The translations under genes and the position numbers were made by a program. A model generated the notes under the pieces. It saw nothing but the letters and a program-made list of their open reading frames with translations, was not told the origin of the DNA and did no database searches. From Bacillus sp. REN16 (lineage in GTDB: Bacteria; Bacillota; Bacilli; Bacillales; Bacillaceae_L), in the NCBI RefSeq assembly GCF_020731355.1, contig NZ_JAJFZK010000002.1:124001-188000 (forward strand): DNA of 64,000 nt, written 5' to 3'. This document shows positions 20,341-24,390 of this stretch, piece after piece. The first letter of the stretch is position 1, and each line of letters opens with the position of its first letter.

Positions 20341-21699
20341 TTAATGAGAAGCCCCATTTGTGAGTAGAATATTGGCTGTTGTTCCTTCCCCTTCGATACT
20401 TTCTAATTGGACTTGTGCATGTATCGCATCCGCCAATTCTTTTGCAAGTGAAAGTCCCAAGCCATAGCCTCCTGTTTTTCTTGCTCTCGCCTTATCCACC
20501 CGGTAAAAACGGTCAAACACCTTTTCTACATCTTGGGCGGGGATTCCAACACCCTGGTCAATGATTTTAATGCTAGGTCTTTTCCTTTCCTGTCCGAGTA
20601 CAACAATCACAGGTTTTTCGCTGTACTTTAGGGCATTTTCCATGAGGATATAAAAAAGCTGCTTGAGCTTTTGTTTATCTGTCCTTACAATGATTTCCTC
20701 TTCTGCAATGATTGAAATTTCACGTTTGTATGCCTCGCGAAATGACACAACCGACTCGTCGACAAGTTGTAAAAGGGATACGGGTTCAATGTAAAGCTTC
20801 CACTGTTCATCATGCTTTGCCAGCAATAAAAGCTGTTGAGTTAATTCCCTCATATGGATCGCTTCAGACTGAATCGCATCTACCGCTTCATGAAACAGCT
20901 TTGGGTCTGCTTGTCCTCTCCGTTTTAAAAGGCTTGCATAGGAGTCAATAACGGTTAATGGTGTTTTTAACTCATGAGATGCGTTTGAGACAAAATTCTC
21001 CTGCTTCTCATAGTTCACTTCTAATAAATCCATCATTTCATTGAAGGTATGACCCATCTCGTACAGTTCGTCATTTGATTCTTTTGATAATTCGATTCGT
21101 TTATATTGTCCGCTTTTTCGAATTTCCCGCATCGTCTGAATCATTTTTGTTATTGGCTGAGTAATAACATTACTTAGCAGTCTGGTTGACACAAAAACCG
21201 GAATGGTTGCAATCAAAGTGACAGCAAGTAAAACAAGACTTAATGTTTTTAAGTTATTTGAAGTACTCGAGAGATTTTCAATCACCTGGAGCTCAACTAC
21301 ATCCCCGTTTAGCCAAATGATTGGGTATGATACGAAAGCATGTGGAACCCCATTAAAATCAATGATTTGTCTTTGTTTAGCTTTATGATAGGCTGTTGGA
21401 AAATTCTCCAACGCCTGCTGTTCTGGAACGAATGCTTGTGCTGCTACACTCCCATCTGGCCGTACTACCTGCATCATGCCATCTAAAGGTAGATATGTAC
21501 GAAGCAAAGTCGCGGCAGAAACGGAATTACCCGTTTGAGATATACCGTTCATAGCACGTTCTGCCTCTGCCTCTGTACGATCTAATTCACCATTAAACAT
21601 CATCTGGCTGAATGTAAAATAGGAAGCAATATTGACTAGAACAAGCAATATGATAAATACAACTGCGGTGAATAAATTAATCTTTTTCCGTAGTTTCAT
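20341..21699 (-). CDS. Sensor histidine kinase (YkoH-like)
   Basis: 452 residues. Two membrane helices (about 9-32 and 152-175) flank an external sensor domain, then HAMP (about 175-230), HisKA with the phospho-accepting His in NASHELKTPLTVIDSY, and HATPase with ENALKYS, DQGVGIP and GGYGLGLSLAK. It overlaps the response-regulator stop by 4 bases (ATGA). In B. subtilis the YkoGH pair sits by the PepSY genes ykoIJ, the same content as here. The signal is unknown. Confidence 0.9.
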   Translation of the reverse strand: MKLRKKINLFTAVVFIILLVLVNIASYFTFSQMMFNGELDRTEAEAERAMNGISQTGNSVSAATLLRTYLPLDGMMQVVRPDGSVAAQAFVPEQQALENFPTAYHKAKQRQIIDFNGVPHAFVSYPIIWLNGDVVELQVIENLSSTSNNLKTLSLVLLAVTLIATIPVFVSTRLLSNVITQPITKMIQTMREIRKSGQYKRIELSKESNDELYEMGHTFNEMMDLLEVNYEKQENFVSNASHELKTPLTVIDSYASLLKRRGQADPKLFHEAVDAIQSEAIHMRELTQQLLLLAKHDEQWKLYIEPVSLLQLVDESVVSFREAYKREISIIAEEEIIVRTDKQKLKQLFYILMENALKYSEKPVIVVLGQERKRPSIKIIDQGVGIPAQDVEKVFDRFYRVDKARARKTGGYGLGLSLAKELADAIHAQVQLESIEGEGTTANILLTNGASH

Positions 21700-22400
21700 T
21701 TCGTTTCCTTCATCACATAGCCGACACCACGTACCGTATGAATCAGCGGCTCGTCATATGGCTTATCCATTTTATTTCGCAAATATCGAATATACACATC
21801 GACTATGTTTGTGTCACCGTAATAATCATAACCCCATACAGCATTTAATAATTGCTCCCTATTCAGCACCTGTCTTGGATGTTTCATTAAATATGCGAGT
21901 AAATCAAATTCACGAGGCGTCAATTCAATTTCATCGTTATTACGCGTCACTTCATAGGTACTCTCACTAAGTTTTAGGTCACCTATTCTCAACATATCAT
22001 CTACTTGTTCTTTCTTAGACGTGTCCTGGTGGGGATTGTTGCGAAGTGCTACTCGAATACGAGCTAGTAATTCTTCAATTTGAAACGGTTTTGTTATATA
22101 ATCATTTGCTCCTAAATCAAGACCTGACACCTTGTCCTCTACCGAATCTTTTGCGGTTAAAAGAATGACCGGTGTTGTCGCATTTGATGCGCGAATTCGC
22201 CTTAACACCTCAATACCGCTAATGCCCGGAAGCATGACATCTAAAAGGACCAAATCCCATTTGTCCTTTTGAAACATATCCAAGCCTGATTTCCCATCAT
22301 AGGCTTTCCCCGTTTCATATCCTTCATATGTTAATTCAAGCTCCAATACCCGCGCAATTTTCTCCTCATCCTCCACAATTAAAATACGTTGTTTCTGCAT
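21696..22400 (-). CDS. OmpR-family response regulator (YkoG-like)
   Basis: 234 residues from ATG 22400; a TTG four codons earlier lies on top of the GAGGG site. Receiver domain with the acidic pocket ILIVEDEE, the phosphorylated Asp in DLVLLDVMLPG, Thr in LLTAKD and Lys in DYITKPF. The C-terminal winged helix has ELTPREFDLLAYLMKHPRQVLNREQLL and VDVYIRYLRNKMD, ending HTVRGVGYVMK. First gene of the two-component/PepSY set; the likely targets are the downstream PepSY genes. Confidence 0.92.
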   Translation of the reverse strand: MQKQRILIVEDEEKIARVLELELTYEGYETGKAYDGKSGLDMFQKDKWDLVLLDVMLPGISGIEVLRRIRASNATTPVILLTAKDSVEDKVSGLDLGANDYITKPFQIEELLARIRVALRNNPHQDTSKKEQVDDMLRIGDLKLSESTYEVTRNNDEIELTPREFDLLAYLMKHPRQVLNREQLLNAVWGYDYYGDTNIVDVYIRYLRNKMDKPYDEPLIHTVRGVGYVMKETK

Positions 22401-22487
22401 TTCCAATTCCAACCCTCATTTCTCTATGTATCTACTATTGGTATCTATCACCATTTTACCCCAATTCTGTCATCTCCTACACCAAAA

Positions 22488-22545: not shown

Positions 22546-22665
22546 CTATTCTTCTTCAATTTCGTCCTCTTCAGATCGTGGTCTTCTCCCCCAAAAGAAC
22601 TCCCATGCATCCATTCTTTGAGATTCCTGTTCCTCAATGGTTTCCTTTTCATTGTTATCTGCCAA
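22546..22665 (-). CDS. Small acidic protein, 39 residues
   Basis: TTG start at 22665 with GGGGAGG 8 bases upstream and TAG stop at 22546-22548. The product is MADNNEKETI, a Glu/Gln-rich stretch, then a conserved-looking core DAWEFFWGRRPRSEEDE and an acidic tail. The strong ribosome site, acidic composition with an aromatic WEFFWG core, and a terminator after the stop argue that it is real. A longer ORF in another frame (22515-22709) has none of these and is its shadow. I do not recognise the function. Confidence 0.65.
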   Translation of the reverse strand: MADNNEKETIEEQESQRMDAWEFFWGRRPRSEEDEIEEE

Positions 22666-22822
22666 TCCCGACACCTCCCCGAAATAATGGTCGTAAATAT
22701 CCTATTCAAGTCTTTGTTTTACGTTTGGGGATTTGCCCATATTTAATTAAAATTTCATGATGGAAGTGTTCGGATAAACCATGTATACTGAAATTGTAAA
22801 TACATTGAAGAGGTGATTAAGG

Positions 22823-23038
22823 ATGGCAAAATCAAATGCCCGGAAAAAGCGCGAAAAGCTTATCCGTGAAGGGAAGCGAAATCCAGAAAACGGGAGAAGC
22901 CCATTTGCATTAATGGATATGCAAACAAGAATGACAAAAACAAGAAAAGATCATTTATACCGCACCAAACATAAGAACCAATCATTCACAGATGGAAATG
23001 ATGGTTCTTTTTGTTTTTGCAGGTTAGGAGTATCCTAA
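22823..23038 (+). CDS. brfA: Probable BrfA (YqkK-like) ribosome rescue factor, terminator inside the reading frame
   Basis: ATG 22823 follows GAGGTGAT at 6 bases. The 71-codon frame starts with the basic AKSNARKKREKLIREGKRNPE and RSPFA, then MDMQTRMTKTRKDHLY. This matches my recollection of B. subtilis YqkK, renamed BrfA, a rescue factor that recruits RF2 to ribosomes stalled on non-stop mRNA. A strong intrinsic terminator (22974-23018) lies at about codons 51-65, before the stop at 23036-23038. The normal transcript would thus lack a stop codon and its product would be tagged by tmRNA, so the active protein appears when tmRNA fails. The mature C terminus is uncertain. Confidence 0.78.
   Translation: MAKSNARKKREKLIREGKRNPENGRSPFALMDMQTRMTKTRKDHLYRTKHKNQSFTDGNDGSFCFCRLGVS
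22974..23018 (+). terminator. Intrinsic terminator inside brfA
   Basis: AAGAACCAATCATT (about 22973-22986) pairs with AATGATGGTTCTT (22997-23009) with one bulged A and a 10-base loop, followed by TTTTTGTTTTT. It lies wholly inside the open frame; no in-frame stop precedes it. Confidence 0.85.
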
Positions 23039-23120
23039 TTTATCCAATCACTTGCCTCTTTCTCGACTTTGCAGGTTCTGCACATCCTAGTTTTATACAG
23101 TAACGCCTGGTAAACAATAA

Positions 23121-23147
23121 AAAAACACTGGCACCCAAGAGTGCCAG
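23121..23147 (-). terminator. Terminator after the DUF438 gene
   Basis: CTGGCAC (23128-23134) / GTGCCAG (23141-23147), followed by a U run on the minus strand. Confidence 0.88.
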
Positions 23148-23163
23148 CATTTTTTCCTATCAC

Positions 23164-24390
23164 TTATGATAATATCCTCTTTTCTCCTTCAATCTCCTGG
23201 ATTGGAGCTATATTTTGAGAGAATTCCATCGTTCCGATATACTCTCCATCCTCATCACGGACTGCAAAGTATCGGATATACACATATTTACCTTTTGCCT
23301 TGATCCAAAAATCTTCTGTATCTTTTCTTCCTGATTTGAAATCTTCGAGTAACTCTTCAACAACGTGAACACTTCTTGGAGGATGACAGTTTTGAACCGT
23401 TCTTCCAATAACTGCTTTTGTTCTTGCAAAGATGCGCTCTTTTCCTTTACTGAAATAACGGACGACGTCATCCTGATCGATGAACGTAATATCAACCGGT
23501 AAATGATTTAAGAGTAATTCAAGTTGTTTTAAGGATAAGATGCCTGTTTCCATCTTAATAAACCCTTTAGTTGTAATTTGTTCATCATCAATCACATTTC
23601 GATTTGGCTTCCATTCATCAGGTGAAATTAAACAAAATCCGATTTCATCACTTTCATTGGCCATTTTTAACCATTCGTCCTCTGTTAAATTATTTAACGA
23701 CATTGGGAAGAGGATATTTTCTTCGCGATAAATCATTTCATCAATTTGATCGGCAAAAAAATTAATAACCTCCGAAACTGACTGTTTATCCCCATTGTAT
23801 TCGGCAAGTATTCTTTTTGCATCTTTTATTGCGTCCACAATAAAATCATCAATCTTCCACATCATATTGGTTGGGCCATATATACCGTACTTTTCCAAAT
23901 ATGGAAAGAGAAGCTGTTCTTTTCTTTCATAATGCTTTCTGATATCCAATAAGAGGTTGCAATCCTCAAGTAATTTCAGTCGATTTTCTTCATGATCATC
24001 TTGTTCAAAGGTTTGCAAATGCGGCTTAATCTTATCATTTATTAGCTTTTCTAATTCTCTATTTTCAAGCTTAAACGTATGCACTGGATGGCCAGGTTGT
24101 TCTTCTGGATGAGAAGCCAGTGTTTCTTCTATTAAATCCTTAAAAATCTCCCGATGCTGCAAACAAATATCGGTTGCATCAGTTGCTGGGATGTTCTCCT
24201 CTTCCACCAGTACATGCTGCAGTCTGGAGATTTCTCCTATTGTAATATAACCAACCTTATTTGCTAAATGGGCTTTAATCTCTTCTACTGATTTCCCATT
24301 ATGTAAATCCTTAAAGCTTTGTTTTATGATGGCTTCTCTATCAGAATCACTGATTTTATTTTGTTCCCGATTATTAATAAGTTCACTCAC
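23164..24390 (-). CDS. DUF438 / hemerythrin / PAS sensor protein
   Basis: 408 residues from a GTG start at 24390 with AAAGGAG 7 bases upstream. Domains in order: DUF438 (about 15-90; FKDLHNGKSVEEIKAHL), a hemerythrin-like four-helix bundle (about 95-235) with His/Glu ligands in HPVHTFKLEN, HYERKEQLLFPYLEKYG and EENILFPMSL, and a C-terminal PAS domain (about 285-400; LPVDITFIDQDDVVRYFSKG, GRTVQNCHPPRSVHVVEELL, IRYFAVRDEDGEYIGTMEF). The di-iron and PAS parts suggest sensing of O2, NO or redox state. A match to the Fnr box upstream fits that. Output mechanism unknown. Confidence 0.87.
   Translation of the reverse strand: MSELINNREQNKISDSDREAIIKQSFKDLHNGKSVEEIKAHLANKVGYITIGEISRLQHVLVEEENIPATDATDICLQHREIFKDLIEETLASHPEEQPGHPVHTFKLENRELEKLINDKIKPHLQTFEQDDHEENRLKLLEDCNLLLDIRKHYERKEQLLFPYLEKYGIYGPTNMMWKIDDFIVDAIKDAKRILAEYNGDKQSVSEVINFFADQIDEMIYREENILFPMSLNNLTEDEWLKMANESDEIGFCLISPDEWKPNRNVIDDEQITTKGFIKMETGILSLKQLELLLNHLPVDITFIDQDDVVRYFSKGKERIFARTKAVIGRTVQNCHPPRSVHVVEELLEDFKSGRKDTEDFWIKAKGKYVYIRYFAVRDEDGEYIGTMEFSQNIAPIQEIEGEKRILS

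Follow-up and report, generated by a model that had tools for sequence, protein, structure and literature searches.

The locus at 22823-23038 in a 64,000-nucleotide window of contig NZ_JAJFZK010000002.1 from Bacillus sp. REN16 (the window is the whole stretch that was analysed, and all coordinates are window positions) very probably encodes BrfA, a ribosome rescue factor that, by analogy with Bacillus subtilis, would depend on the release factor RF2 and be controlled by trans-translation through a non-stop mRNA. The homology of the protein, the architecture of the gene, the conservation of this architecture among relatives, and the presence of genes for transfer-messenger RNA (tmRNA), SmpB, and RF2 in the same genome are observed directly. 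The mechanism itself is already published (PMC6881298, Shimokawa-Chiba 2019) and the window gene is an additional, divergent BrfA. The new elements are a family that is wider than the literature found says, the prevailing non-stop layout of its genes, and the escapes from that layout.

The rescue circuit and its genes

The terminator within brfA was found in B. subtilis, where PMC6881298 describes and tests it as rho-independent. With the terminator intact, GFP-BrfA-FLAG accumulates in that species only in the absence of smpB, and lacZ placed downstream is very low; breaking the terminator lifts both restrictions. The BrfA product, of about 62 residues, recruits RF2 (PMC6881298). At the window locus most transcription would likewise end at a hairpin and T tract within the frame, giving an mRNA without a stop codon, and the general behaviour of intrinsic terminators would put its 3' end at about 23014-23018. 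Ribosomes would stall at this end. With tmRNA-SmpB working, BrfA would be tagged (tag ending GKENNNFALAA) and degraded, and under an overload or loss of trans-translation an untagged form of about 63-65 residues would be released, occupy the empty mRNA channel of other stalled ribosomes, and bring RF2 to them. As the mRNA is expected to end before the stop codon, BrfA should accumulate only when tmRNA fails. Termination in vivo, tagging, and RF2-dependent release are expected here from what is reported in B. subtilis.

The window genome carries the partners of such a circuit. A tmRNA is recognized by the Rfam model at 162.7 bits (cut-off 47) and its tag is readable, the SmpB gene adjoins it on contig C12, and an RF2 gene matches B. 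subtilis RF2 (chain 6szs_z) with an E value of 1.4e-191 over 341 residues. A self-monitoring circuit as in B. subtilis, which the original prediction had proposed from the letters alone, is thus supported by the homology, the in-frame terminator, and the tmRNA, SmpB, and RF2 genes, with its operation extrapolated from the homologue.

Identity of the protein

A phmmer search of all PDB sequences returns a single match, chain 6szs_y, which is YqkK/BrfA of B. subtilis in the BrfA-RF2-ribosome structure 6szs (E 4.6e-5, residues 1-54). Profile A1, built from 15 sequences of the window protein's own family, finds the same single chain at E 3.5e-10 and no other PDB match up to E 1. The predicted kinship with YqkK/BrfA is thereby supported, and the alignment on which it was to be judged covers residues 1-54 with 22 identities, as counted from the printed alignment. 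A larger profile of 71 rows (A2) matches YqkK at E 1.6e-19, though some rows of A2, L211 among them, are themselves close to B. subtilis BrfA. Pfam and NCBIfam have no model matching the window protein up to E 10, and when the 71 family members are searched against the two libraries, each yields one stray weak match and no family model.

The contact positions named in PMC6881298 are identical at four of six in the window protein, namely R25, R36, K49, and H50; the pair Lys49-His50 is the mRNA-channel motif. Arg25 is conserved in all BrfA sequences according to PMC6881298, and R25 and R10 are both invariant across the 71-row alignment. In B. subtilis BrfA, F31, H34, and R36 contact the RF2 switch loop and A1492, and the available part of that study does not call them defining (PMC6881298). 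Many relatives carry RSPF...D.RTRKTKTKK in the F31/H34 region, and F28 may take over the role of F31 in the window protein. To judge from its sequence, the protein is a divergent BrfA homologue, more divergent than the name suggests. It is very improbable that the frame encodes a different small basic ribosome-associated protein whose likeness to BrfA is coincidental. The modest similarity, the two differing contact residues, and the lack of a Pfam or NCBIfam match would suit that explanation, but the own-family profile reaches its significance with no competing structure, and the gene has the same unusual architecture as brfA.

The terminator within the reading frame

The frame starts with ATG at 22823, just downstream of a strong ribosome-binding site (Table 1). 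The two claims from which the proposal had started, a strong terminator inside this frame and a stop codon only past it, hold on inspection. The hairpin has an energy of -13.9 kcal/mol, its arms AAGAACC (22973-22979) and GGTTCTT (23003-23009) are able to pair, and T occupies seven of the next eight bases in the fold-based detector. The fold of 22965-23025 has a z score of -2.98, with 3 of 200 shuffles equally good. The last base of the stop lies 31 bases from the first T of the TTTT run. The hairpin is absent from the output of a simple terminator scan (loop 3-8, T window 0-2 bases past the stem), probably because its bulged inner part falls outside the rules of that scan, and the fold-based detector was used after this miss. 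When the limits are relaxed to -7 and 5 T, hairpins are also scored in 12 of 49 window frames; one such hairpin is therefore weak evidence by itself, and the weight falls on conservation.

An intrinsic terminator usually frees the RNA about 7-9 bases past the stem. Residues F63 to about F65, which lie in the T tract, may for this reason be translated; the claim that the frame past the hairpin is probably never translated stands only for the residues beyond about F65.

Conservation of the in-frame terminator

Conservation was examined in 261 distinct loci. The 230 loci first collected reduce to 201 distinct ones, the class and phylum searches add 63 to make 264, and three were dropped (L238 and L239, without a full BrfA-like frame, and L316, cut by a contig end). 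The T tract stands ahead of the stop in 241 of the 261, loci from related species not being independent. This count consists of 239 loci scored by script (184 and 55), with L042, L057, L114, L211, and L268 added by eye and L194, L196, and L201 removed for a poor T tract. The remaining 20 comprise 12 with an ordinary stop, two with a broken frame and a terminator (L097, L216), and six that are unclear, of which L194, L196, L201, and L204 have a hairpin with a poor T tract, and L285 and L286 have terminators both before and after the stop.

Under strict limits (energy of -11 or lower and at least six T of eight) an in-frame terminator is found in 235/261 brfA loci versus 11/245 control frames, counts that are not fully alike since a T tract was accepted if it started 4 or more bases ahead of the stop in brfA but 8 or more in controls, and brfA was scanned 110-230 bases past its start while the controls were scanned over their last 90 bases. 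The controls are window frames of at least 100 amino acids and frames of at least 120 amino acids from L045-L124, and four of the 11 that pass (L063, L066, L069, L072) consist of the brfA frame extended to an earlier start.

The stems vary in sequence yet pair, and hence the amino acids at both arms change together. There are 74 distinct arm pairs among 187 loci, although the pairs are read from folds and are fully paired by construction. In a test that uses no fold, the six bases that precede the T run have their exact complement upstream in 133 of 251 loci, versus a mean of 5.7 (maximum 13 in 200 draws) for swapped arms and a mean of 6.7 for shuffled arms. For example, K-N in one arm goes with G-S-F in the other, K-R with G-L-F, K-K with A-S-F, and K-E with A-P-F, the pattern to be expected from selection on the RNA stem itself.

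The part of the frame past the T tract behaves differently. Within the window genus this tail differs between most members, the frames running from 67 to 82 codons (L012-L014 have a common short end, and L016 and L017 are alike), and such a variable tail is hardly kept as protein. Between the hairpin base and the end of the T tract, 252 loci have 13 stops in frame 0, 39 in frame +1, and 197 in frame +2. Seven of the 13 lie just past the T tract and were counted as non-stop (L018, L023, L064, L084, L114, L116, L268), and six are true stops ahead of the tract (L097, L216, L231, L289-L291). The shortage of frame-0 stops fits in direction; codon use alone could cause much of it, and it is not leaned on. 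From the T tract to the first stop the median in these 252 loci is 7.5 codons in frame 0 versus 10 and 13 in the others, perhaps as a safeguard against read-through or perhaps from composition. Fifteen of the 241 non-stop loci that have a TTTT run place the final base of their stop no more than 18 bases from its first T (closest in L064, at 11), and part of the transcripts might include the stop in these.

Lineages with an ordinary stop codon

The 12 loci with an ordinary stop fall into group f39/g42 (L219, L221, L222, L223, L228, L236, L237, and a second copy, L231) and group f49 (L288-L291). In L289-L291 the stop is inside the terminator hairpin, ahead of the T tract. In the seven f39/g42 loci other than L231 it follows a common tail ending GWRVEKVA or GWRVEKAA, an ending like that of tmRNA tags, which might serve as an inbuilt signal for degradation. 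The f39 form may be either a paralogue or an altered orthologue, and five other g42 genomes carry a non-stop copy of another subtype. On a 149-row tree the 12 stop-type sequences are placed among non-stop sequences and need two changes, with the starred branches forcing two, in a tree of 56 columns that has low resolution, a bootstrap that is not settled, and a midpoint root for drawing only. The tmRNA scores above the cut-off in all 17 genomes checked (eleven stop-type genomes and six non-stop neighbours). Since all eleven stop-type genomes have kept it, loss of tmRNA does not explain stop-type brfA.

Seven loci of group f46 (L192, L194, L196, L198, L201, L203, L204) have a common tail ending YTACF or YTASF with the stop at 228-231, and in four of them (L194, L196, L201, L204) the T tract is poor. 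The common tail speaks against the simple non-stop reading in this group, which is perhaps another partial escape from the non-stop layout.

Taken over the class, it seems likely that the non-stop circuit dates far back in the Bacilli (Bacillales, Paenibacillus, Brevibacillus, Listeria, and others) and is not a late invention of Bacillus, that it has been kept by selection on an RNA hairpin overlapping the coding sequence, and that it has been switched off on two or more occasions, in lineages with tmRNA, by a stop before or in place of the terminator.

Alternative explanations of the non-stop layout

Several observations weigh against the non-stop circuit at the window locus. The residues corresponding to F31 and H34 of B. 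subtilis BrfA are M31 and Q34 in the ungapped alignment. ARAGORN reports no tmRNA in L002, despite the Rfam score and the readable tag. The fold-free test finds no exact complement in 118 of 251 loci, and only 43 of 90 distinct arms have an exact complement in any locus, partly because mismatches and G-U pairs were disallowed. In principle the hairpin might also just mark an ordinary gene end that is imperfect. Finally, the second terminator-like site at 23128-23147 means that a read-through mRNA including the stop could exist.

This last point leads to an explanation in which the hairpin stops only part of the transcripts, while most reach 23128-23147, include the TAA, and give constitutive 71-residue BrfA outside tmRNA control. 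The downstream site would stop read-through transcripts that include the stop, and the ordinary stop in 12 of the 261 loci means that constitutive expression must be tolerable. Likewise, the alike pre-stop residues of the seven f46 loci, four with a poor T tract, indicate that the whole frame may be translated there. Nevertheless, partial termination is unlikely at the window locus, where the T tract is dense and the stem strong; the tail past the T tract varies in both length and sequence between most members of the genus, and the equivalent terminator of B. subtilis leaves very low downstream lacZ (PMC6881298).

Non-stop mRNAs may also arise in another way. In E. coli the arfA mRNA loses its stop codon when RNase III cuts a hairpin. 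The four f46 loci with a strong in-frame hairpin and a poor T tract (4 of 261) would accommodate a similar origin of the brfA mRNA, by RNase III and not by transcription termination. For the window gene this is scarcely credible, as a dense T tract stands directly behind the stem, and it is a rho-independent terminator that PMC6881298 describes and tests. The circuit that begins with transcription termination within brfA is preferred.

Distribution of the gene

In the order, 396 genomes were sampled and 144 of them match profile A1, spread over 51 of the 135 genera; two of the 144 (G304, G083) are without a full BrfA-like frame, leaving 142/396. A2 gives a match at E values up to 0.01 in 89 of the 398 class genomes, an upper figure that includes some weak matches, six of which were not inspected (G402, G477, G503, G707, G739, G746). 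For class matches that at first lacked loci, 40 were fetched. Among 398 genomes of the phylum A2 matches 11, ten of them within the class; the other, at E 0.0085, lies inside a 548-residue frame and is disbelieved as a family member.

The named relatives nearest to the window include Bacillus timonensis and Fredinandcohnia, and named carriers of the gene include Paenibacillus, Brevibacillus, Fontibacillus, Listeria, Virgibacillus, Oceanobacillus, and Priestia. For example, the homologue in Listeria monocytogenes, WP_003733083.1 (L240:2501-2731, + strand), carries the annotation hypothetical protein; its gene lies between pyrR and a STAS-domain gene and also has a terminator ahead of its stop. 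The very divergent sequences of group f50 (MARTQTQKALRKAERSG..., for example L273) match A2 only at about 1e-5 to 1e-7 with the same in-frame terminator, and they are probable family members.

A 2024 survey, which counts under arfA, records 5 of 2,633 Firmicutes as carriers, and a wider survey was not found among the papers listed by the literature searches, most subscription papers being outside the reach of that search. As the profiles find brfA in a large minority of the sampled Bacilli, such a factor is probably present in several genera believed to be without it. This matters because backup rescue helps decide bacterial survival after a loss of trans-translation, a process that an abstract names as a proposed drug target. 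The stop-codon lineages offer a natural test of the purpose of non-stop control.

Carriage of brfA by mobile elements was considered and rejected. Viral contigs gave 64 pattern matches, and no relative is encoded at any of them. Two plasmid records, both from Listeria monocytogenes, were likewise not accepted as plasmid-borne copies: one (H1) is labelled 'plasmid 4' and is 809,616 bases long, with the match set among housekeeping genes, and the other (H2) is 2.9 Mb in length (contents not inspected). One phage record holds nearly the same Listeria protein, 'Listeria phage' OR849059.1 (L241:1-135), a 2,650-base unverified contig that is probably bacterial DNA.

Features of the locus

The coordinates of the brfA locus are collected in Table 1. 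A TATACT-like stretch is found at the equivalent place in seven of nine aligned genus members, window included, and not in L016 and L017. At gathering scores, Rfam finds nothing within the window.

Table 1. Signals and features of brfA in the Bacillus sp. REN16 window
Feature	Position	Strand	Basis and remarks
Candidate -10 element TATACT, -35 weak	22784..22789	+	sequence
Shine-Dalgarno GAGGTGAT	22810..22817	+	sequence inspection; GAGGTG identical in 9/9 aligned genus members, window included
brfA open reading frame	22823..23038	+	71 codons and TAA; homology to YqkK (6szs_y)
Terminator hairpin inside brfA frame, AAGAACC ... GGTTCTT	22973..23009	+	fold energy, z score, stems in relatives
T tract TTTTTGTTTTT	23008..23018	+	sequence; TTTTT 23008-23012, G, TTTTT 23014-23018
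Only in-frame stop of brfA, TAA, past terminator	23036..23038	+	sequence
Second terminator-like site, part of two-way terminator common to converging gene	23128..23147	+	terminator scan

The gene stands by itself among frames of the opposite strand. These are a response regulator at 21696-22412 and a small frame at 22546-22674, with a converging gene at 23164-24390. The two-way terminator-like site spans 23119-23156, between brfA and the converging gene. The small frame, which lies on the minus strand between brfA and the response regulator, encodes an acidic product of 42 residues from a GTG start. Over 34-35 residues it has 65-89% identity in seven of eight genus relatives (114 loci searched, 14 matching, each genome present twice), and it looks like a real small gene.

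Comparison with known rescue systems

The closest system is BrfA (YqkK) of B. subtilis (6szs, PMC6881298). It has in common with the window gene a length of 71, the residues R25, R36, and K49-H50, the in-frame terminator with the stop beyond it, and the genes for tmRNA/SmpB and RF2. The two differ in the stretch that reads RG...FSTHGRMTK in B. subtilis and RSPF...DMQTRMTK in the window protein, where the positions of F31 and H34 are not matched. The BrfA homologues with a stop codon (f39/g42 and f49) have the same N-terminal domain, and L289-L291 even retain the hairpin, but their ordinary in-frame stop is unlike the window brfA. ArfA of E. coli is, as PMC6881298 presents it, also a backup rescue factor that recruits RF2, is made from a non-stop mRNA, and is kept low by trans-translation; at the window locus these properties are predicted. 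The window protein, with no Pfam or NCBIfam match up to E 10, is not detectably of the ArfA family as judged from the library models.
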